Position numbers and translations under genes: made by a program
Assembly (NCBI GenBank): GCA_024734495.1
Contig: JALMQS010000187.1
Span: forward strand, 10,407,300 to 10,471,299
Length of the DNA stretch: 64,000 bases
Direction of reading: 5' to 3'
Source of the DNA: Forficula auricularia
Lineage: Eukaryota > Arthropoda > Insecta > Dermaptera > Forficulidae
Shown: in pieces, positions 4,385 through 63,683 of the stretch
Layout: the number at the start of each line of letters is the position of its first letter
Position numbering within the stretch: the stretch's first letter is position 1
The notes under the pieces: generated by a model
The model's input: only the letters and a program-made list of their open reading frames with translations
The model's database searches: none
What the model was told of the DNA's origin: nothing

Positions 4385-4789
4385 TAAAGTTTTGACATAT
4401 CTTTTTAATTAAAGGTAAATTCGTTTTTCTGCCAAGTTTCAGCTTCCTAGCTCAAACATTCGATGACTAAAACATTGCCAATTCTCCAAGTATACCTTGT
4501 TTGGAAAGTTTTCCCTTTTTTTTATCCATAGCCTAGCGAAAGAAGAAAGAGGTTCTTTGAGATAAATGATTGGTTTTGGTCGTTCAACTACATCAACTCA
4601 ATTGGTTAAAAAAATGTTGACATCATGGCCTCAACGAAAGTAAAAAAGTATTTAATTAGGTTGAATTTTTTAATACACAGGAAGTTCTATGGGGGACCTT
4701 TTGTTAGAAGCCAACAAGAAAATGTAATCTTTATACACAACTAATATTTTTTTTATATAAAAATTAGTAAAACTATTATTAAAATAACA

Positions 4790-5600
4790 TTCAACTTCTT
4801 ATTCAAAAACCGACGTTTCGGAGGCCTATTCCCTCCTTGTTCAGGGTTTTCTTTTTTGAATCTTGGACTGCCTCATCAATATCCACTCAATTCACTTATC
4901 AGTCCGTCTCCAAAAACTACTTTAATCTTATTAAAAAATTAGTAAAAGTATTAATAAAATAAAATTTAACTTCTTCAAAAACCGACGTTTCAGAGACTTA
5001 TTCCCTCCTTCAGGGTTTTCTTTTTTGAACTTTGGACTGCCTCATCAATAAACTCAATTCACTTATTCCGTCACCAAAAACTACTTCAATCTTAAAATTA
5101 GTAAAACTATTAATTAAAAAAAAATTTAATTTCTTATTCAAAAACCGAGGTTTATTTCCCTCCTTCAGGGGTTTCTTTTTTAAATTTTGGACTGCCTCAT
5201 AATATCCACTCAATTCACTTATCAGCCCATCTCCAAAAACTACTTCAATCTTATTAAAATATTAGTAAAACTATTAATAAAATAAAATTTAACTTCTTAT
5301 TCAAAAACTGACGTTTCAGAGGCTTATTCCCTCCTTCAGAGTTTTCTTTTGTAAATTTTGGACTGCCTCATCAATATCCTCTCAATTCACCTATCAGTCC
5401 GTCTAGAAAAACTACTTCAATCTTATTAAAACTATTAATAAAGTAAAATTTAACTTTTTATTCAAAAACCGACGTTTCAGAGGCTTATTCTCTTCTTCAG
5501 GGTTTTCTTTTTTGAATTTTGGACTGCTTCATCAATATCCACTCAATTCACTTATCAGTCCGTCTCCAAAAACTACTTCAATCTCAGTAAAATTTAACTT
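4790..5600 (-). repeat. Tandem array (~160-bp unit, 5 copies) with degraded hammerhead-like cores
   Basis: Five head-to-tail units start near 4790, 4951, 5114, 5276 and 5436. Each unit (minus strand) contains a CCCTGAAGGAGGGAATAAGC-like block followed within a few bases by GAAACGTCGG, except unit 3, where the GAAACGTC is lost. Unit 1 keeps a possible stem II (GGAGG / CCTCC) directly before GAAAC. A second conserved hairpin pairs GGACTG with CAGTCC about 40 nt apart. The order CTGA - stem - GAAACGTC is the signature of hammerhead ribozymes in Penelope-like elements, but G8 or A9 of the core is altered in every unit, so activity is unlikely. The unit length is near a multiple of three, which explains a 67-codon frame at 5010-5213; I do not call that a gene. 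Confidence 0.7.
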
Positions 5601-15480: not shown

Positions 15481-15657
15481 TTATTTTAATTTAAATAATT
15501 TGAGATAAATAGCACATCTGATTGTTCGCCAATATCGCCTTAAAATATCATTAAAATAATTATTTATTATCTTGTTAACGTTCTATTAGTCAAATTAATA
15601 AAGTAAAGGGTGTGTAGTTTCACAGTGAATGAAATAAAACTCAAAGAGGTTTATTAC

Positions 15658-15700
15658 AAACTCAATATATTTCCGATTAATAGTCCATCATCAGGAGTTT
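15658..15700 (-). ncRNA. Hammerhead ribozyme-like motif (left arm)
   Basis: On the minus strand: AAACTC, core CTGATGA, stem II region, GAAA, loop TATA, TT, then GAGTTT. Stem I (AAACTC/GAGTTT) pairs perfectly. The last base of stem II is changed from C to G compared with the right arm, which weakens that stem. Confidence 0.65.
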
Positions 15701-15723
15701 ACAAGTTAAAAGTTTTAACTTGT

Positions 15724-15766
15724 AAACTCCTGATGATGGACTAATAATCCGAAATATATTGAGTTT
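15724..15766 (+). ncRNA. Hammerhead ribozyme-like motif (right arm), type I, minimal stem III
   Basis: Stem I 5' strand AAACTC (15724-15729) pairs with GAGTTT (15761-15766), 6 of 6. The invariant core CTGATGA is at 15730-15736. A 14-nt stem II region (15737-15750) has GGA pairing with TCC after an extra U. GAAA is at 15751-15754. Stem III is a single A-U pair closed over the loop UAUA. The predicted cleavage position follows U at 15760, within the allowed AUU (NUH) triplet. All catalytic bases expected from the hammerhead consensus are present. The weak, bulged stem II and one-pair stem III make monomer cleavage uncertain; such motifs in Penelope-like elements often work as dimers. Confidence 0.75.
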
Positions 15767-16591
15767 CTATAAACCTCTTTGAGTTTTATTTCATTCACTG
15801 TGAAACTACACACCCTTTACTTTATTAATTAATATCATGTTTCACCTAAAACCTACACCACTTTCCCTAAGTAAAAAAAAATTCTATTAGTCAGATGATA
15901 AACACATGGGTGGTCCAAACTGAAAGAATTTTTCACTTTACCTACCATTCATGTTTTGTTTTTTGTCCAAGAGCAAGCAGAAGCTGAAAGAATAGGAATT
16001 AAGAAAAACAGACCATTGTCATCCTTGATTGGTATCTCTCTGGAACTTAGCTTTAAAGAACAATGCAATTTTTCTCTTTAGAAAACCTATATGGTTAGAT
16101 TCAAAATATTTTAGAAAACGTTCCAATTCAATCTAAGAACGTGTCCTCAAATAAGAAGTGTTGACCTGCTCAACAAGGTTGATTTGCCCTTGCCGTTTTC
16201 ACGGCTCTGGCCCTTTAAGGAGGTCCTTTCGCTCCAGTTGAGTCAAAAGAAGTCTAGTATCTAATATTTAATCAAATAAGTTAAAATACAAATGAAAATT
16301 AAAAATAAATAGTTTGAAAGCTGTAAATGTTTGAATTAAAAACAATTATAAAAAATAATTAATAGAAAAGTTTGATTTATTCAAATATCAGCTGATAATA
16401 AGTCTTGTATGATTTGACAATGCGTTGTATTAATACTGCTTATGTTTACATCCAAACATAGCATTTATGTGATTTTTTAAAGTAAATATCTAAGTAATTC
16501 GTCGGTCATTCATATATTTTATTGCAAAAAAAGAAACCTGCATGTTTCAAAAAGCTAATTTTTAGTTTTTTTTTCAACTTTATCTATTCAC

Positions 16592-18025: not shown

Positions 18026-18295
18026 TTAAATAAAAAAATTAAAGTAAATGGAGTGTAGTTTCACAGTGAATGAAATAAAACTCAAGAGGTTTATACAAAC
18101 TCAATATATTTCGGATTATTAGTCCATCATCAGGAGTTTACAGATTACAAACTTAACGAAATAGATTGAGTTTGTATAAACCTCTTTCAGCTTTGTATCA
18201 TTCACTGTGAAACTACACTCCCTTTACTTTATTAATTAATATCATATTTCACCTAAAACTTTCACCACTTTCCCTAAGTAAAATTAAATAAAAAA
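18026..18295. mobile_element. Family G hammerhead insertion in family C, 12-bp duplication
   Basis: The insertion is flanked by TTAAATAAAAAA on both sides (18026-18037 and 18284-18295), whereas uninterrupted C copies have it once. The left arm is complete. The right arm keeps ATTGAGTTTGTATAAACCTC but has lost the catalytic core. The 3' tail TTTCACCTAAAACT, then CACTTTCCCTAAGTA, matches the element at 15593. Confidence 0.88.
18097..18139 (-). ncRNA. Hammerhead ribozyme-like motif
   Basis: The minus strand has stem I AAACTC / GAGTTT (6 pairs), core CTGATGA, the same 14-nt stem II region as 15737-15750, GAAA, UAUA loop and UU before the predicted cut. It is identical in all core positions to the motif at 15724-15766. 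Confidence 0.75.
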
Positions 18296-19864: not shown

Positions 19865-19943
19865 TAATAAAAAAAGTAATAAAAATTGCTTAAAATTGCG
19901 AGGTAGGTTTCACAAAAAAAGAAATAAAACAAAAATGAGTTTT

Positions 19944-19986
19944 GAATTCGATATATTTCGGGGTGTCAAGCCCATCTTCAGGAGTC
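19944..19986 (-). ncRNA. Hammerhead ribozyme-like motif (left arm)
   Basis: Minus strand: GACTC, core CTGAAGA (N7 = A, allowed), stem II region with GGG / CCC, GAAA, UAUA loop, U, then C at the cleavage position and GAATTC. Stem I pairs at positions 1, 2, 4 and 5, with one mismatch. Confidence 0.65.
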
Positions 19987-20178
19987 AGAGAAAACTGAAT
20001 CTATTCTTATAAACCCAGGTATATTTTCCCACCATCTGGCTAAAAACTCACTTGTTCCATCTGTCGAAAATATTAATTCTCAGTACGTTTTCTCCTCCTC
20101 CTATCTTTCCCTCATCATACATATTTCCAAAAAATTATTATTTGTAAAAAATTTTCCAATTTATATTCAGTTTTCTCT

Positions 20179-20219
20179 GACTCCTGAAGATAGGCTGATA
20201 CCCGAAATATATCGAATTC
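20179..20219 (+). ncRNA. Hammerhead ribozyme-like motif (right arm)
   Basis: Core CTGAAGA at 20184-20190, GAAA at 20204-20207, UAUA loop, AUC-type cleavage triplet ending at 20213. Stem I is imperfect. Stem II is reduced to about two G-C pairs, so this copy is probably inactive. Confidence 0.6.
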
Positions 20220-20376
20220 AAAACTAATTTTTGTTTTATTTCTTTTTTTGTGAAATCTACCTCGCAATTTTACGCAATTTTTATTATTATATAAAAATGT
20301 TTCACCTAGAACCAACATCTATCTCCTCAAAAGTTATTAATAAAAAAAGATCTATAAAACCTTAAAGATTTCCTTC

Positions 20377-21122: not shown

Positions 21123-22230
21123 TTTATCGGCTACTGTTTTTTTCTTTTTTTAACATACAAGCACCTATTTTGTTCCGCCCAGTGTAATATGTAAGACCTC
21201 AAGTGTGTAGGCAGCCCCCGTAATGGCAACTGCACTCGACGCTTACTGCAGCATGAGAGAATTTACTCTCTTGCCAAGCCTTAAACATGTTTCATTAGAT
21301 AATACAAAAAGAAAGAATTGCATATAACTACACCGACGCCTACATTTAAGTTTATTTCTCTCTCTTTCCTCGTAAATCATTATCTGTATATTATAAATAT
21401 ATATTTATCTTATATTATTTCAAACTCTTCCAAATGGGTTGATCCGTCCCATTTCAAATGACTCTTGAAAACAGACCCTTGTCAAACTTGGAACATATCT
21501 CTTTTTTTTACCCTTTCGCATGAATTTTTCTTAAACCTTTTGCCTTGAAATAGAAAACGGAATTCTTTGTTCTTTAACAACGATGTATTGTCTGGTTTAT
21601 TCACCACATAAAATTTAACTCGTATGTACTAAAAATAGATTAGAATCTATGGAAAATGATCTTTCTCTACTAGATTACAAATCCTACTATTATTAATACT
21701 TCAATTGATCAAGAATAGTTGACGTGTCGCTTTTAAATATTAAAAGCATTTTACGATCGGCTTTTTATAATTTTATTTCTTCCTCAACTAAGTACTTCTC
21801 AATAGAATTTTATTAGACCTACATATTTCTCTAATTTAAATTCATAAATAATCACACATTTTTCAACATATTATAATTTTACCATTTATAATAATTATTA
21901 AACATAATATTCAATTAAACTTTTCCTTGATTGCATGAAAATGCATGTCCACAGAATTCAATGAAAACATTTTCAACTAAGGCAAGACTACTTGTAAACT
22001 CATAACCAGAGCTCGGATTTATAGGCACTAAAGATCTTTAAAATAGGCAGACAACTAAGCACTAAAAATAACTAAAATAGGCACTTAAAAAGGGATTTTA
22101 AGTAAAAAATGGAAATTACCAATTTTAGATAAAATAGACACTAAAAAAGGCATTTATAGATGAAATAGGTACTAACATCCAGAATAGGGCAAAATAGGCA
22201 TTATAGGCACTAACAAATTCTTCTTATTTT
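21123..22230. other. Spacer, nothing recognised
   Basis: AT-rich, except for a GC-richer patch at 21165-21260 (CCGCCCAGTG, GCAGCCCCCGTAATGGC). From 22015 to 22210 a degenerate A/G-rich internal repetition of AAATAGGCACTAA-type motifs occurs (about 22020-22215). Confidence 0.45.
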
Positions 22231-22358
22231 ATTCAGAATTTTACTTAGAGAAAGTGGTGTAGGTTTTAGGTGAAACATGATATTAATTAATAAAGTAAAG
22301 GGTGTGTAGTTTCACTGTGAAACTGCACACCCTTTACTTTATTAATTATTCAGAATTT
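22231..22358. mobile_element. Stripped family G insertion with 11-bp target duplication
   Basis: A 106-bp insertion (22242-22347) lies between identical 11-mers ATTCAGAATTT (22231-22241, 22348-22358). It has the G tail (GTGGTGTAGGTTTTAGGTGA) and a short inverted pair GTAAAGGGTGTGTAGTTTCA / GTGAAACTGCACACCCTTTA, but no hammerhead core. It shows that core-less derivatives also inserted. Confidence 0.85.
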
Positions 22359-26243: not shown

Positions 26244-26447
26244 AGGGCCACTTGTAGTCGTTGGTAAAGTCTTTGTAAAAGTTGGCAAAGGGTAAAACCT
26301 TAGAATTCACCTTGTGCCGGGCGGGATGGCCAATCAGATGAAGTGATCATCTGATTGGCCATCCGGCCGGGCACAAGGTGAATTCTAAGGTTTTACCCCT
26401 TTGCCAACTTTTACAAAGACTTTACCAACCGACATACAGCTGGCCCT
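26244..26447. mobile_element. Family E palindromic MITE
   Basis: AGGGCCACTTGTAG at the left pairs with TGGCCCT at the right, and the pairing continues over almost the whole ~100-bp arm (AAAGTCTTTGTAAAAGTTGG; GATGGCCAATCAGATGA). The centre is a tiny loop around AGTGATC. Further copies are at 46457, 46761 and 55032. The duplication length is unresolved. Confidence 0.88.
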
Positions 26448-42597: not shown

Positions 42598-43605
42598 TTA
42601 TATGAATCTATATCAAAACCAGACGGCAATTATAAATATTGGTGATGAACAAAGAGAAGCCAAAATAAAAAAAGGTGTAAGACAAGGATGTGTGCTGTCA
42701 CCCATGATTTTCAACTTATACATAGAAGAAGCGATTAAAGAATTCAAAGACAAAATTGATACAGGTATAGAAATCCAAGGTCAAAAAGATCGCTATGTTA
42801 AGATTTGCCGATGACATTGCCCTTCTAGGAAGCAATAAAAAGAATTAGAGGACGCCTTGAATGGAATTAACCAAATCCTAATAGAAGAAATCAAAATGAA
42901 AATAAACAAGAATAAAACCAAGGTCCTAGTATGTACAAAAAAAGAACAAACGAGACAGGAATGCATCAAAATTAACCAAGAAAACCTAGAAGGAGTTAAG
43001 GAATTCCGCTACCTAGGAAGTAAAATAACATGGGATGGGAGGAGCAAAAACGAAATTAAATCAAGAATTGCCCAAGCAAAAATGGGGTTTAATTCAAAAC
43101 AAAAACTACTATGCTCCTCCTCAATCAGCTTAGCAAACAGGAAGTTGCTATTGAAGACATATGTATGGAGCATAGCCATGTACGGGTGTGAAACCTGGAC
43201 AATTGGAAAAGCGGAGAGAAAGAGATTGGAGGCTTTCGAAATGTGGTGCTACAGAAGAATGATGAATATCAAATGGATGGATAAAATTACAAATGAAGAA
43301 GTTCTTGGAAGAATCGGAGAAAGAAGAACCTTGTGGAAGAGTCTGAAGAAGAGAAGAGGTCAGATGATGGGGCACACACTGAGACATGGGGGACTGCTTA
43401 GGGGATATCTTGGAGGGGAGGTGGGAAAGAAAAGGGGAAGGGGAAGACCCAGATTAGAATATTTCAACCAAATAATTGGGGATATGGGATGCCAGACATT
43501 TAGAGAGGTTAAACAGCTGGCGGGGGACAGAGTCGAGTGGAGACGGATTGTTGCATCAAACCAGTCTTAGGACTGTATACTCAATGATGATGATGATTAT
43601 ATGAA
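42598..43605 (+). pseudogene. 5'-truncated non-LTR retrotransposon, reverse transcriptase relic
   Basis: The insertion (about 42607-43596) lies between 9-bp duplications TTATATGAA (42598-42606 and 43597-43605), so its boundaries are defined. The ATG at 42602 is in the target duplication and is not native. Frame 1 (42607-42814) has the reverse transcriptase motif VRQGCVLSPMIFNLY. Frame 2 (42795-42848) holds the catalytic FADD block (RFADDIALL). Frame 3 (42842-43570) has the thumb and C-terminal region: EFRYLGSKITWDG, YGCETWTIGK, RGRGRPRLEYFNQ, stop at 43568. Two frameshifts break the protein, and the endonuclease and first reverse transcriptase motifs are missing. The tail is (ATG)n at about 43583-43596. 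This fits an RTE/CR1/Jockey-type LINE inserted by target-primed reverse transcription; the exact clade is not assigned. Confidence 0.92.
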
Positions 43606-44510
43606 ATATGATTCACTAATGCTTATTAAGCGTATCTCTGTTTATTAAATTATATGTATGATTCAATCTGCTTGGATAATTATTGATCATAAGTGTTTTT
43701 TTTTATCATGTGAAACAAATTAATCGATATTAATGTCGTCTTCAAAGATCAAGAATTCAATTATTTATTTATTTCATTGCAATGAAAAACGGACACGTGG
43801 AAGTATTTTTCTTGTTTTTATTAATAAATTAGGGATGATATATAGACTAAGAGAAATAATATATTTTTTGAATTTATTTGAGTCTACTAATAAAATATTT
43901 AGAAATATATTATCTTGAGTTTAATTTTAATATATACTTACAGAAATGACACTCTACTAGCATTTAATTACATTGATGTCACGCATATTCTCACAAAGTT
44001 TGAAAATGATTCATTTAGTAGGGTTTTTATAAAAGTTTTTCATTGACTCATAGTAATGTATTTAATAGGATTTTTCATTCAAATTTACAAATGCGGATAA
44101 ACTATTTTTGGTTTTAGCTTTAATTAGTTGTGATGTTTTCAAGCGTTAATTTGACATTTCCCCTTCAGCATTTTTCGGAGTTGGCAGCTACTCTGATTAA
44201 ACCGATACCTGTGTTAGTTCAGATTTTTTATAATCCCTTGGCAAGACAATCAATTGATATAAATATTTATTTATCATTGTACTATATTTCTTTTCATAGC
44301 TCACTTAACAACTCACTAAGTTAAGGGAATTTAATTCCGAATGGAAACATTATTAAAACTAGGGATTAATTCACCTTTGAAAAGCTTTTTCGATCCTTTT
44401 ATCCATCATAGAAGCATTTCCACTTTTTCTTTTTTTTTATAGTTAGTACCATTCTATGTGTTCTAATAATAAAAACACCTTAATAGGCGATTCACACTCA
44501 ACACTATGTT
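43606..44510. other. AT-rich spacer, nothing recognised
   Basis: AT-rich sequence; short frames of about 60 codons without motifs. Confidence 0.45.
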
Positions 44511-44856
44511 TGAAGGAGACAATAAAAGAGTGTGTCTTCTGCTGGAATTATAAATTTTATTTATTTATAACAGGAACTATAGTTTCGAGGGCTTTGCCCT
44601 CTTCATCAGTCTATTACAATGTATTCACAGGAATTAATTTATGAATGAAAGTTTTACATTTTTCATGTGTTAAGGTTGCATAAATTACATAGACCCATTA
44701 CCACTCTATGTAATTTATAACAGCAACATGTAAAACTTTCATTCATAAATTAATTCCTGTGAGTATTGTAACTCTAGGCGATGAAGGGCAAAGTCTCAGT
44801 AGTCTCGTTATAAATAAAATTTAATTCCAGCAGAGAACATAACATTGTCTCCTTCA
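44511..44856. mobile_element. Hammerhead-bearing palindromic element (third family)
   Basis: Ends TGAAGGAGACAAT / ATTGTCTCCTTCA and arms containing TTCTGCTGGAATTATAAATT / TTTAATTCCAGCAG are inverted copies, with a central stem TAAATTACATAGA / TCTATGTAATTTA. The left arm has a well-preserved hammerhead core. The right arm core (44770-44812) is degraded (GGCGATGAAGGGCAAAG). The motif CTATAGTTTCGAGGGC also links it to the element at 63173. Confidence 0.85.
44566..44618 (-). ncRNA. Hammerhead ribozyme-like motif, strong stem II
   Basis: Minus strand core CTGATGA (44603-44609), one extra A, stem II GAGGGC-AAA-GCCCTC (6 pairs), GAAA, stem III A-C/G-U over the loop UAUA, and the cleavage triplet GUU. 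Stem I (TGTAATAGA with CCTGTTATA) forms about eight pairs including wobbles, but the pair next to the cut is C-A. Confidence 0.72.
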
Positions 44857-44867
44857 ATATATAAAAA

Positions 44868-44990
44868 TTCTGCTACTCTCGGCAAAAACTTTCAATTCAA
44901 CACTATGTTGTCAAATTCGAAACTAGTAGAACTACCCCAACTTATCCTAAATTAAATTGAAAGTTTCTTTTTGCCGAGAGTAGCAGAATG
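44868..44990. repeat. Short MITE-like inverted repeat (~122 bp)
   Basis: ATTCTGCTACTCTCGGCAAA at the left is matched by the reverse complement TTTGCCGAGAGTAGCAGAAT at the right, with ACTTTCAATT / AATTGAAAGT extending the arms. It lies 12 bp after the hammerhead palindrome. Confidence 0.85.
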
Positions 44991-45021
44991 GAATGGATCA
45001 AAAATGGAATGCAATAAACTT

Positions 45022-45300
45022 ATTCCTCTAGTATTATATAAGAATCTATTGTTATTTTTGATTTTAAGATCATTCCTCCATCTCTTCAGCAATGGTTACC
45101 AATAATAATCGAAACGTCAAAAATCCAATGTAGAATTGTTATTCCCTCAAGTATTAGATGAAAATCGATGGCTATTTTTGATTTTAAGTCGATTCCTCCA
45201 TGTCTTCAGCAATGGTTAACAATAATAACCGAAACGTTTAAAATCCAATATAGAATGGTTATTCCTCGAGTATTAGATGAGAATCGATCATTATTTTTGA
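45022..45300 (+). repeat. Tandem repeat (~119-bp unit, about 2.3 copies) with GAAACGT motif
   Basis: Units share ATTCCTC...AGTATTAGATGA, TATTTTTGATTTTAAG, TCTTCAGCAATGGTTA and AATAATAAYCGAAACGT. GGTTA pairs with TAATC just before GAAAC, as in a stem II. The upstream core reads CTTCAGCAA instead of CTGANGA, so it is at most a degraded hammerhead. It resembles the array at 4790-5600 in layout. Confidence 0.7.
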
Positions 45301-45739
45301 ATTTATGTCAACATGGACTGCAAATAGCAAGTGATATCTGATTAATAATAAAGGAATAAACATATTAATATTTCAAATGACTTTGGATTAAGTTTAGCAA
45401 CGATCCGTTGCAGTTTATTTTCAATTATTTTTAAGAGTAGACAGCGACTTATAGATAGGTCTTGCATCACTATTAACTAGCATCCTAAAAAAAATGTTCA
45501 GCTCCAAGCTTTTATGGATAGGGTCCATTGTCATTTCTGATTACTTAATCCTTCTCTAAGATTTCTCTTTTAATTCTCATCAAAAAGAGAATTTCCATTC
45601 AAGGACACTCATTTTAATTTTTATTATGCGTTGTTTTCTGTTGGTTTTACCTGATAAATATTTCTACATGCTATTACTGTAATAATTTAGATTGGTGGAC
45701 TTGTTTGTTTCTTGTAAATTGTTGTGGCTGTCGCGTAAA

Positions 45740-46760: not shown

Positions 46761-46967
46761 AGGGCCAGTTGTATGTCGCTCTTGATTAAAGTCTTTGTAA
46801 AGTTTACAAAGGGGTAAAACCTTAGGATTCACCTTGCAGGCCCGGCGGGATGGCTAATCAGATGAAAGTGCGTGTCATCTGATTGGCCATCCAGCTGGTC
46901 ACAAGGTGAATTCTAAGGTTTTACCCTTTGTAAACTTTTACAAACCGACATACAACTAACTGGCCCT
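46761..46967. mobile_element. Family E palindromic MITE, complete copy
   Basis: AGGGCCAGTTGTATGTCG to ACAACTAACTGGCCCT, arms about 95 bp, centre AAGTGCGTGT. Lies directly after the duplicated flank. Confidence 0.88.
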
Positions 46968-52657: not shown

Positions 52658-53752
52658 GACTTCCGTGGAAAGGTTGTTGATGAAAAAATTCTCGCTCAAT
52701 TATTATCAATTTATTTAAAAAGGGAAAATCAAACTCGTAAATTGGGGATCTAGTTAATTTATCAAAGATTACTGTCAGAAATATTATTCGAGTTTATAAA
52801 ACAACGGCTACAATAGCTACAAAACCTCGAGATGCGTCGAAAACCAAAATATCAGATGCTGATAGACGGGCATTGAAGAAGATTATTAGAAAAAAACAGG
52901 CGTTCGAACTATGGTGAATTATTCGTTCTTTGGAGCGATGCTGTGGGGCGAAGTGTTTCAAGATCCACGTGCCATAGAGAAGCCCTTAAGTTAGGTTTTA
53001 AAACTTACAAGGTAATTTTATTGCAACTTATTCCAATTTTTTTTTTTTGTAATTTTACTAATTTTTTTTAGGCGAAAGAAAAGCCACTCTTGACATTAAA
53101 ACAAAAGAAAAACCGGCTTAAATGGGCTAAAAGTCACATTAATTGGACGAGTGATGAATGGAATAGTGTCCATTGGAGTGATGAGTCTCGTTTTGAAGTT
53201 TGTGTTGGGGACAATCGAAGCAGAGTTATTCGTCAGAAAAATGAAGCTTTCAATTCAGATTGTTTAAAAGAAAGTAAAATTTCCTGCTTCAGTTATGGTA
53301 TGGAATTCAATGTCTGCTAGAGGTGTTGGAAAACTTCACTTCATTGATGGAATTGTAAACACCAATAAATATTTAGAGATTTAAAAAAATATCGTTACTT
53401 CCAACGATGGCAGATGCATTGCAGAATAATAATAATGTTGTGTTCCAACAAGATGGGGCGGCCTGCCATACATCAAGAAAATATTTAAAATGGCTTTCTG
53501 ATCATAATGTTCCACTTTTGGAGTGGGTGGCAAACAGTCCCGACTTGTCACCAATAGAAACTCTTTTGGCACACAATGAAAAGCTATTACGAATACAACC
53601 AGCTAGAAACGTAGTCGAATTAAAACACAAACTTCAAAATATTTGGGATACTTTCACTCAAGATGAGTGTCAAAACTTAATAAGTACGGTGCCCAAAAGA
53701 ATTCAAGCAGTAAATAAAAATAAAGAGTTTACAACATATTTAATTACTAAAA
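52658..53752 (+). pseudogene. Tc1-like (DD34E) transposase relic
   Basis: Cut-and-paste transposase of the Tc1 group, broken by several frameshifts and stops. The N-terminal DNA-binding part (52658-52920) is unreadable as one frame. From about 52950 it reads RSVSRSTCHREALKLGFKTY, then, after a 60-nt intron-like gap, AKEKPLLTLKQKKNRLKWAK. The first catalytic Asp is in HWSDESRFEV, the second in VVFQQDGAACH, and the Glu in SPDLSPIE. Exactly 34 residues separate the second Asp and the Glu, which defines DD34E. The end reads TVPKRIQAVNKNKEFTTYL, the usual Tc1 finish, after which the frame runs straight into a family A half-element. I could not find Tc1 terminal repeats or TA duplications. Confidence 0.9.
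53012..53071 (+). other. Intron-like gap in the Tc1 transposase
   Basis: The 60-nt segment begins GTAATTTT, ends with a polypyrimidine tract and TAG, and lies in phase 0 between KTYK and AKEK, which are adjacent in Tc1-like transposases. It has CTAAT upstream of the T-tract as a possible branch point. Most Tc1-like elements have no intron here. Confidence 0.65.
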
Positions 53753-53754
53753 AC

Positions 53755-54099
53755 AAGCTGGCAACAACGCATGTATTTAAACTAAAAAGTGGGTTAATTT
53801 TAGTACTTTTTTTGACGTTTTTTCGCTTCAGCCATTGTCGCAATAGCTTTCAATCGCTTATTAAGAACTTTTTGTTTTATAAATCTCCCTTTATAATGTA
53901 CTTTATCTGAAATTTCTATAATGAAATATATACAAACTCGGACAGTGCTGCCAGATTTATCAAACGAACACGGGATTGGCTTGTAGTGGTACATAAACAG
54001 CAAAAAGTTTAGGGCTTATTAATTATGAATCTTTATTGTCTGTTTAATATACTCTAGCATTAACTTTTTGCTAGTATTGTCGCGAAACAACTACCTTAA
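53755..54099 (-). mobile_element. Family A right half, fused to the Tc1 relic
   Basis: Starts ACTAAAAACAAGCTGGCAAC, in the middle of the normal A element, and continues to GCGAAACAACTACCTTAA. The small basic frame (53800-54003, minus) is open. The same mid-element start point is used by the copy at 59455. Confidence 0.9.
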
Positions 54100-55031
54100 G
54101 AAAATACAATTAAGAACTTGTATGAAAAAATTAGTCTCAATTCATTCAAGCTTCCAGCTCGATGATAATGATTCGTTGATCCATAAATTCTTCAATTATC
54201 TAAATGTAACTTTTATTTATTTGTTATGGATTATTATCCGACACTCAATAAAATACACGTACTATAAATAATTGATTCATCATTTCATAATTTTTACTTA
54301 TTCTTTGCATGATCAAGGTTCGTAGTTTTTATAGAGAAGGTATATCTAATTGCAGATAATTGAATCATTAAAAAATGCATCTGCGTGGTATTTTTTTTCT
54401 TAGTTTAATCAGAGATAATTTCTATACACAAAAATAACCTATTATAAAATGTCTTGATCGGTTCCTTTTGAAGAGAAATCTAGTCAAATATAAAGGCATC
54501 AGAAATAAGAACAAGTTCCTAATTAAAGAAAATAACGCTATATCATCTACCTAGGCAGCCTTGAGGGCAAATTTAACCTATATTCGTATTTCGTCGACAA
54601 ATAACTAAAAATTGTCTATGGAATAAATTACCTTAATTAACATCTTTGTTTTTGGAAAAAGATTAGGACTTAGAAATTATCTTTGTCTTTTTTTTCTCTC
54701 CCAGGATAAAATGATGTTATTTATTTATTTATTTTTTAATTATAGAAACAACAGAATTAGTAGGCAAGATTTTTAACTAATTTGTTGATTTTATTGTTCA
54801 AATTCTTGAACAGTTTAGCTATAAAAGAAACGGAATGTTTTCAGTTCAAATTGACTCATGCATTTCGGTTATTAGAACTTAATGATGGATTTATTTGATT
54901 AGAGTCAAACGGTATTTATGGATCTCTAAGGTCTTTAAGGATAAGAAAAAACTTTGAAAGAATTTCAGGCCCTGAAATCGAAATAAATTAAGTGACTAAT
55001 TAATTAGCCCGATTTATTTCTAATTTTCCTA
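54100..55031. other. AT-rich spacer, nothing recognised
   Basis: AT-rich; nothing recognised. Confidence 0.45.
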
Positions 55032-55236
55032 AGGTCCAGTTGTATGTCGGTTGGTAAACTCTTTTTAAACGTTGACAAGGGTAAAACTTCAAAATTCACC
55101 TTGTGCCTGGTTGGATGGCCAATCAGATGACAGTCACTTTCATTTGATTGGCCATCCCACCGGCACAAGGTGAGTTCTAAGGTTTACCCTTTGTCAACGT
55201 TTAAAAAAGTTTACCAACCGACATACAACTGGCCCT
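55032..55236. mobile_element. Family E palindromic MITE
   Basis: AGGTCCAGTTGTATGTCGG to CCGACATACAACTGGCCCT; arms near 95 bp; includes GATGGCCAATCAGATGA and its complement. More diverged than other E copies. Confidence 0.87.
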
Positions 55237-56258
55237 AAGTATTTCTTTAATAATTTTTGCAAATCATAATTTATTTTATTGCAAAATTTGTGCTTAATAA
55301 AATATGGTAGTATCGAGAGGGTTACAAAGGACAAGGGTCGAAATGTTTGTTCAATGGTCCAAAAGTACAATCCCTATTCATTTTTGGCCTCTATTGAATC
55401 ACACCAATAAATAATTTCTTGTCTATTTATTTGAAAATTTCAATTACTTCTTATGATCGACACACAAACATAAAAATCATGAATCTGAACATTAATGATT
55501 TTATAAAAAAAGTAACCTTGTTGCTATGTATTTTTTATTAAACACAGCAATGAGAGAAAGAGAGACCAGGTGGTATTCAGACATGAATAGTAATATAATT
55601 ATCTTCTTATTAGAATATTTTATATGTAATGAGAATCAATTAACACGTAAAAATAGTAGGGACTGAAATATCATGTACTAAAAACTTTCACAAAGTGGGT
55701 GGTCTAAGCTTGGAAAAACTTCCAAATCATCAACCTGGCTAAATAAAAAATAATTTTATTAAATATGAACTCTTATGAAATCAATCATGTTATATTATAA
55801 ACTAGTGATGCAATTCAATGAAAAAATTTAAAATGATAGAAGAAAATTTTCCAAAAAAATTCAATAAATTATTTTCTCTTTAAAATGCCTCTTAAGGTTA
55901 TAAGCATAATCTGACTTGTGATGAAATAATAGAACTGGGGCTATCTTATAATGATGAAATAATATTATAACATTTATTGTATCTATGACCTATCATGTTT
56001 CCAATTTATTAAAATGTATTTATTTATTTATTGTTTAAGCGAAGGCTAACATAATGGAAAAGGCACTTGTTTCCACCCTTAAAAGCGCCCTAATGAATTA
56101 ACTTAATGTCAGTAATTTTCAACACTGACGTTAATTAAAATCTTTTTCCCAATGTTAGACAACAAGAATATTAGCAGTACAAAAGAGCTAGGTTCTCATT
56201 ACACTATTTCACTAAGAACAACCTTATTTAGTAGTCCAGTACAATGCCAATGGACACT
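55237..56258. other. AT-rich spacer, nothing recognised
   Basis: AT-rich; nothing recognised. Confidence 0.45.
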
Positions 56259-62640: not shown

Positions 62641-63172
62641 GAAATTTAATCATTTATTAAAATTTTTCATCATTTTATCTAAATCGGCTTTAACAATTTT
62701 TGAAGTGAAACTTCTTTAGCGATATATCTGTTTGAATGTTTTTGTTATAATAAAGGGGAAATGACCCATAAGAGGGGAAATAAGAGACATCTTGCTGGCC
62801 AGGGGACGAAGGAAGCCCTTTGGACTCAGTAGTGTGTTTTAAAGTAAAAATTTAAATTTCCTAATTTTAATAAATTTTATTTGTCATGAGCTATTAGTGG
62901 ATTTTAAAACTAAAATTTCACTTCCCCCGTGAGCTTATGGGGATGAGGCTCACATATTTTTTAAATTTTCAATTATTTATCACTAATTATATAAACAATT
63001 AAATATGCTTGTTTGGGAAGGATTAATGAAGGTTTGGTTGGAGTTGGAGTTTTTTTAATCCCTTCGTCTTTCAAAAACAAAAAAACAACTATCTTATTAT
63101 TTTTTATTAGTTGAATAAAAGATTTCACTGTCGATGGTAACAGAATTGTTTTTATTTTAGGTTAAAAATAAA
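62641..63172. other. Spacer, nothing recognised
   Basis: AT-rich; nothing recognised. Confidence 0.4.
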
Positions 63173-63224
63173 ATAAAATGAGAGAGTCTTCTGTTTTTTA
63201 AATAAAATAATTTTTAATTATTTC

Positions 63225-63266
63225 TAGAGACTATAGTTTCGAAGGCATTGCTTCATCATCAGTCTA
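63225..63266 (-). ncRNA. Hammerhead ribozyme-like motif (left arm)
   Basis: Minus strand: TAGA, core CTGATGA (63256-63262), stem II with one G lost relative to the other arm, GAAA, A-C/G-U stem III over UAUA, GUC cleavage triplet, then TCTA. Stem I has 4 perfect pairs next to the cut. Confidence 0.68.
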
Positions 63267-63424
63267 TCACAAATATTTCAAATTAGTTACAAATTAAGAT
63301 TTATACATTGAAAATTTTGAAAAATATATAATATATTATTGGTTTCTATATATAATATATTATATATTTTTCAAAATTTTCAATGTATAAATCTTAATTT
63401 GTAACTAATTTGAAATATTTGTGA

Positions 63425-63467
63425 TAGACTGATGATGAAGGCAATGCCTTCGAAACTATAGTCTCTA
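63425..63467 (+). ncRNA. Hammerhead ribozyme-like motif (right arm), best preserved stem II
   Basis: Stem I TAGA/TCTA, core CTGATGA (63429-63435), an extra U, stem II GAAGGC-AAT-GCCTTC (6 perfect pairs), GAAA (63452-63455), stem III C-UAUA-G plus A-U, cleavage triplet GUC ending at 63463. All conserved core bases are present; the only departure is the extra base between core and stem II. Confidence 0.76.
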
Positions 63468-63683
63468 GAAATAATTAAAAATTATTTTATTTAAAAACAG
63501 AAGACTCTCTCATTTTATCTTATTATTATTAATTCGGGAAATGTATATATGACATGTCCTGTGAATTAAAATCGACAAAAATATTTTATCCAATTAATAA
63601 TACCCCAATACTAGGGGCCGAAAGTGCATTTGAAAACTACTCAATTATTATTTTTTTTTTAATCAGTAAATTTATTTTTTTAT

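Follow-up and report, generated by a model that had tools for sequence, protein, structure and literature searches.

The palindromic insertion E1 (15581..15893) lies in a 64,000-nucleotide stretch of Forficula auricularia DNA, referred to as the window. It is read here, with a probability of about 0.7, as a noncoding insertion of the Penelope-like element (PLE) type. It consists of two head-to-head pseudo-LTRs, and its opposed hammerheads are probably a by-product of the insertion mechanism, as both pseudo-LTRs contain a hammerhead motif of the minimal type I form. Five further insertions, E2 to E6, were located in the window. All six are compact enough for ends, tails, and junctions to be resolved at the level of single bases. 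E1 comprises the following features.

15581..15592, no strand: left target-site duplication (TSD) TTCTATTAGTCA, an exact 12-nt match to 15882-15893
15593..15711, minus strand: tail-less arm, a pseudo-LTR-like repeat in antisense, assigned by its identity to the right arm
15658..15700, minus strand: left-arm hammerhead motif, assigned by descriptor and pair count
15712..15712, no strand: junction (apex), within AAAAGTTTT
15713..15830, plus strand: tail-bearing arm, a pseudo-LTR-like repeat in sense
15724..15766, plus strand: right-arm minimal type I hammerhead motif, assigned by descriptor and pair count
15831..15881, plus strand: one-sided tail of 51 nt, A+C 0.71, C:G 13:2
15882..15893, no strand: right TSD

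The two arms are identical at 115 of 118 aligned positions and differ by an additional 1-nt indel. Two of the three substitutions fall inside the 43-nt hammerhead, and one of these breaks a helix II pair of the left arm. The left-arm motif, the limits of which (15658..15700, short form) were taken from the sequence, carries G in place of C at one helix II position, and its predicted cut lies between 15664 and 15663. The tail is non-palindromic, is located between the right arm and the right TSD, and has a run of A at its end. A preliminary description had reported a retro-inserted palindromic unit with opposed hammerhead motifs of the PLE or retrozyme kind, enclosed by perfect 12-bp target duplications. 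The duplications were recovered exactly (TTCTATTAGTCA at 15581-15592 and at 15882-15893), the core letters of the motif are present in both arms, and a retro-inserted unit of this kind is supported. The TSD-bounded extent given in that account holds as well, but the one-sided 51-nt tail is missing from it, as are the five additional insertions and the tandem array with similar motifs. The tails of E1 (15837-15881) and E3 (20297-20337) both contain ATG TTT CAC CTA (MFHL...) in a frame that is open to the tail end. The protein of the source element may begin here.

The other elements and a tandem array with related motifs are listed below.

18026..18295, plus strand: E2, same family as E1, TSD TTAAATAAAAAA at 18026-18037 and 18284-18295
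18094-18142, minus strand: E2 hammerhead in the tail-less arm
18238-18283: E2 tail
19865..20349, plus strand: E3, related family, TSD TAATAAAAAAAG
19877-20003 and 20162-20286: E3 arms, with a 158-nt unique centre between them and the tail at 20287-20337
22229..22358, minus strand: E4, a short member of the E1 family with TSD TTATTCAGAATTT and the same tail as E1
44498..44909, plus strand: E5, second family, TSD TCAACACTATGTT, tail at 44858-44896
44566-44618, minus strand: E5 hammerhead in the tail-less arm, with one helix I mismatch; the other arm is decayed
63090..63527, minus strand: E6, second family, TSD TATCTTATTATT, tail on the left with an approximate inner limit
63425-63467 (plus strand) and 63225-63266 (minus strand): E6 hammerheads with a GUC triplet
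4753..5593, minus strand: tandem array, third family, 161-bp period, 5.1 copies

The letters of the E1 right-arm motif recur in E2, and E3 contains two decayed motifs that fail the strict descriptor. E4 has no hammerhead. It shares the tail and the outer arm of E1, with 97.6% identity over 83 nt (BLAST within the window), and its arms are joined at TTCAC(A/T)GTGAA; in E1, this imperfect palindrome of 11 nt is found within the arm.

The elements were located by motif and by BLAST within the window, after which a uniform duplication search was applied. TSDs of 12-13 bp flank all six elements, measuring 12 bp in E1, E2, E3, and E6 and 13 bp in E4 and E5. Under the same rule, ten control hairpins, chosen by the author from 25 listed of 35, gave no duplication longer than 8 nt, and among 600 randomly placed intervals 0.5% reached a 12-nt match. 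The rule had been widened after a candidate for E6 was spotted by eye, the narrower flank having failed for this element. As E2, E3, and E6 have duplications rich in A or in A and T, those of E1, E4, and E5 carry more weight. Inverted arms are present in 6/6 elements, and the hammerheads point outward in the five that carry a motif. Each of the six has a tail on one side only, ranging from 39 to about 62 nt and exceeding 40 nt in five; the A+C content of the tails is 0.59-0.71, compared with 0.50 for the window. Divergence between arms and between copies was also considered as a test of origin, and it was set aside as it gave no consistent signal. The arms of E1 show an identity of 0.97 to each other versus 0.94-0.95 to the hammerhead arm of E2 and 0.94-0.97 to E4, while those of E6 show 0.96 to each other versus 0.53-0.63 to E5. 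Arm-to-arm identity is 0.93 in E3, 0.80 in E2, and 0.73 in E5.

Several neighbouring features were recorded. The E5 tail is repeated in inverted orientation just past the target duplication (44858-45000), next to a 120-bp tandem array at 45020-45310. As the tail thus forms an inverted repeat with the downstream flank, its boundary is less sure; nested or adjacent insertions of related elements are a possible explanation. By eye, copies of the 120-bp repeat (45020-45310, plus strand) contain CGAAACGTC followed by AAAAATCC, which resembles the 3' half of the hammerhead of the 161-bp array, without CTGATGA. A separate hairpin family with similar arms (AAGGGTAAAACC...CACCTTGTGCC) occurs at 26260-26429, 46794-46944, and 55029-55239; it gave no match to the hammerhead descriptor and no flanking match of at least 8 nt under the TSD rule. 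Broken Tc1/mariner-like transposase frames are located at 53072-53910 (plus strand), with weak matches to HTH_Tnp_Tc3_2 and DDE_3 under the cut-offs. A 243-aa frame at 42839-43570 (plus strand) has no Pfam match; we take it to resemble the C-terminal part of a LINE reverse-transcriptase protein.

The plus-strand motif of E1 (15724-15766) has 6/6 pairs in stem I, followed by CTGATGA, one extra T, and stem II GGA/TCC with 3/3 pairs. Its 3' portion consists of GAAA, AUAUAU, and the triplet AUU, with a predicted cut at 15760/15761. The strand AUAUAU is self-complementary, and in cis helix III amounts to one A-U pair closed by a UAUA loop. Thus, the "UAUA mini-stem III" of the preliminary description is present as an element, with the correction that UAUA forms the loop. 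Likewise, the hammerhead assigned there to each arm is fully paired in helices I and II on the plus strand and damaged in helix II on the minus strand, where 2/3 pairs remain in the homologous register, although the descriptor accepts an alternative register that includes a U.G pair. Weak points of the plus-strand motif are the 3-bp helix II, the extra U, the AUU triplet, and a folding z-score of -0.93. The extra nucleotide between CUGAUGA and helix II and the AUU triplet are presumably departures of the E1 family from the hammerhead consensus.

Hammerhead-like motifs are present in the window in more than chance numbers. The generic descriptor required an exact core and permitted 0-1 extra nucleotide after CTGATGA, an option that was added because the first descriptor missed the plus-strand motif of E1. 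In this form it matched six loci in 64 kb, namely both arms of E1, E2, both arms of E6, and one copy of the 161-bp array, which are not independent as they belong to three sequence families. The corresponding null gave a mean of 0.07 per window in 60 Markov-1 sets, 0.02 in 150 Markov-1 sets, and 0.007 in 150 Markov-2 sets, with a maximum of 1 each. Without the extra nucleotide, two loci pass (the E1 left arm and one array copy) versus null values of 0.02 and 0.00, and with one core mismatch permitted the null climbs to 0.37 (maximum 3). The first descriptor, which allowed no extra nucleotide and one helix II mismatch, yielded two exact-core matches versus 0.07, and six matches versus 1.43 (maximum 4, 30 sets) when one core mismatch was added. 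E5 passes with one helix I mismatch, and E3 fails.

Family A comprises E1 and E2 and is decayed in E3, family B comprises E6 and E5, and family C is the 161-bp tandem array. BLAST between these families gave no match at E<=0.01. Their helices differ in letters while pairing is kept; in one case, an A-U pair is exchanged for G-C by a double change between E5 and E6. Hammerhead identity between E5 and E6 is 36/42 versus 70/126 elsewhere (Fisher p=0.0004), so that the motif is better conserved than its surroundings; the same comparison between E1 and E3 is not significant (32/42 versus 76/117, p=0.25). Alignments of the motifs by sequence put helix III and the 3' strand of helix I in the wrong place. 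The array contains hammerhead-like motifs in four copies, one of them with an exact core, characterised by helix III ACGU, a GUC triplet, and helix I AAAACC/GGUUUU. It has the look of a non-LTR retrozyme or a pseudo-LTR array that has decayed. A TERT_thumb match in an array frame (E 0.005, under the cut-off) was taken as chance.

The covariance-model check proposed in the preliminary description returned no match to the Rfam hammerhead families across the whole window, either at the gathering score or at E<=10. The same was observed at E<=10 for 15560-15910, 15713-15778, and 63415-63480, the last of which includes the GUC motif of E6. This null is counted as uninformative, no published PLE hammerhead having been run as a positive control, and an RNA-family library may miss minimal hammerhead-like motifs. 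Against the Rfam microRNA precursor families, the E1 hairpin reached a best E of 1e-7 (whole window), under the family cut-offs, which may be an effect of the long hairpin. Two exact hammerhead patterns were not found in viral contigs.

Folding was predicted with ViennaRNA, and all values are equilibrium predictions that include neither tertiary contacts nor help from proteins. For all four motifs examined (E1, E2, E5, and E6) the hammerhead is not the best fold, and core bases are paired. The best fold of the E1 plus-strand motif has -6.2 kcal/mol. The hammerhead itself has +1.3 in cis with helix III and -4.0 without it; the double form has -10.2, and the best fold of the dimer lies below it at -17.0. 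Poor activity alone and perhaps some activity as a dimer are therefore predicted. For the full E1 palindrome, the fold has -171 kcal/mol and joins the two arms by 113 pairs. Both hammerhead helices have a probability of 0.000 in all 16 modelled plus-strand transcripts with a start at 15680 or upstream of it. Starts at 15713 or 15718 give 0.65-0.94 for helix I and 0.79-0.96 for helix II (8/8 modelled transcripts), and starts at 15700 and 15706 are intermediate with 0.38-0.91 for helix I and 0.64-0.96 for helix II. As the helices vanish in transcripts through both arms, the opposed arms are predicted to disable the ribozyme instead of doubling it, and the hammerhead of a palindromic copy would be locked into a long hairpin and mostly inactive. 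Where a tight palindrome carries a ribozyme motif on both of its strands, the motif is thus likely to cancel itself out. The earlier proposal that such a unit supplies the ribozyme from whichever strand is transcribed is at odds with this plus-strand read-through and with the damage to the minus copy.

E1 may be the scar of an event in which element RNA served as template for synthesis from both target DNA strands. The endonuclease of the element would cut both target strands with a stagger of about 12 nt, and each exposed 3' end would prime reverse transcription on the element RNA. One cDNA would start at a distal site and thereby acquire the tail, the other at a proximal site without a tail. 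The two cDNAs would run towards each other and be joined at self-complementary 3' ends; as both copy one RNA, they could anneal only where this RNA is self-complementary. The expected product, consisting of duplication, antisense repeat, sense repeat, tail, and duplication, corresponds to the observed layout. Since the arms extend across the cut site, the template RNA would have escaped cleavage by its own hammerhead. The hammerhead of the source element would probably cut multimeric sense RNA, best as a dimer via the palindromic helix III. According to the excerpted text of PMC11167929 on Poseidon of Anolis carolinensis (PAc), the purified PLE protein cuts both target strands and extends each of them, mostly on RNA that has not been processed. 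PAc has two internal reverse transcription start sites, the interval of which equals the tail, an AC-rich start region, and AT-rich targets. We infer that two start sites used on opposite strands would lead to one-tailed palindromes. Speaking against a fixed one-tail asymmetry, the same excerpts report no start-site difference between the strands. The interpretation of one-tailed palindromes as a footprint of asymmetric two-strand target-primed reverse transcription, with cDNAs joined by their self-complementary 3' ends, is accordingly put forward as a tentative proposal, held at less than even odds. If true, it explains inverted pseudo-LTRs without an antisense template. It would also join a genomic puzzle of 2013 with biochemistry of 2024, the origin of PLE inverted repeats being left undecided in the portions of PMC3846280 and PMC11167929 drawn on here.

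A PLE pseudo-LTR pair could also have become palindromic through fold-back self-priming of a single strand, either cDNA or antisense RNA, which is a serious possibility although on balance doubted. In the PLEs of Adineta vaga, self-priming on an antisense template was the preferred explanation, based on palindromes at the inverted junctions (PMC3846280, in part). In favour of fold-back, the E4 junction lies on a native palindrome, and E1, E5, and E6 appear palindromic at their centres on visual inspection. The E4 junction could equally fit fresh joining at each insertion, or it could stem from a deletion between two near-identical 11-mers of a longer palindrome. A cDNA that started at the tail and folded back should carry tails on both arms, whereas 6/6 elements are one-tailed; self-priming of antisense RNA escapes this objection but requires an antisense template. 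Considerably less probable is a palindromic metazoan non-LTR retrozyme, in which circular or linear RNAs excised by the hammerhead were retro-inserted by PLE or LINE machinery. The motifs do resemble those of retrozymes, as one-pair helix III with a palindromic tetraloop corresponds to HHR_Amex1 and two pairs with a tetraloop to HHR_Amex2 (PMC7229834, in part), and the 161-bp array in the window looks retrozyme-like. The retrozymes described in the consulted parts of PMC7229834 and PMC7761336 are tandem repeats, an arrangement found in the array at 4753-5593, whereas E1 to E6 are inverted and have one-sided tails.

Two further readings are regarded as very improbable. A DNA transposon of the fold-back or miniature inverted-repeat kind, in which hammerhead-like motifs arose by chance, would account for the long inverted arms and for the other such hairpins in the window. 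Against it stand the one-sided tail, TSDs of 12-13 bp, and descriptor matches far above the null in three families. The opposed hammerheads as a selected device for cleavage in both directions, as the preliminary description suggested, would be in line with the descriptor being passed on both strands of E1 and E6, and is just as hard to credit. The helices have a probability of 0.000 in modelled plus-strand transcripts through both arms of E1; moreover, E1 has only a damaged second copy and E5 a decayed one, E2 lacks it, and E4 has no motif at all. With regard to the reading of E1 as a PLE-type insertion, no full-length copy was recognised in the window. Pfam scanning of 24 of the 35 stop-to-stop frames of at least 80 aa found no reverse transcriptase (RT) or GIY-YIG domain, so the tie to PLEs rests on anatomy; a noncoding pseudo-LTR pair would lack the PLE ORF in any case.

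Among known systems, PAc carries a hammerhead at the junction of pseudo-LTR and ORF, which cleaved only with the protein present and was unnecessary for insertion (PMC11167929, excerpts). PAc forms tandem direct copies with a full ORF, whereas E1 to E6 are inverted, a form of pseudo-LTR insertion that does not come up in these excerpts. In E1, 121 nt separate the cut from the end of the tail, compared with 85-92 nt as computed from parts of the same source. The tails of E1 to E6 (39 to about 62 nt) compare with an optional PLE tail of about 30-40 bp. Minimal type I hammerheads occur in PLE pseudo-LTRs (PMC7761336, in part), and amphibian type I hammerheads whose helix III has one or two pairs are much more active in cleavage when dimeric (PMC7229834, in part). 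The motifs in the window share with HHR_Amex1 and HHR_Amex2 a helix III of one or two pairs, a tetraloop, weakness in cis, and better expected performance as dimers. In these excerpts, HHR_Amex1, HHR_Amex2, and the minimal PLE hammerheads stand in a tandem setting, in contrast to the inverted one of E1 to E6 (PMC7229834, PMC7761336). Hammerheads in inverted pseudo-LTR pairs were absent from the titles and abstract openings of the matches listed and may still be reported; the word hammerhead is absent from PMC3846280. That paper, as far as its excerpts go, qualifies the earlier statement that hammerheads of this kind normally lie in direct repeats, as it describes PLEs with inverted pseudo-LTRs, of which the head-to-head form is the most frequently seen inverted arrangement. 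Its Penelope elements from A. vaga have inverted pseudo-LTRs, one of which bears a 31-bp tail; their TSDs measure 8-10 bp, and palindromes occur where the inverted copies meet. Most of the A. vaga pairs enclose an ORF and a few solo pairs other sequence, while those in the window consist of arms only, plus 158 nt in E3, and the TSDs of E1 to E6 are longer at 12-13 bp (PMC3846280, in part). In the excerpted account, the A. vaga elements and E1 to E6 nevertheless share head-to-head pseudo-LTRs, a one-sided tail, target-site duplications, and junction palindromes.
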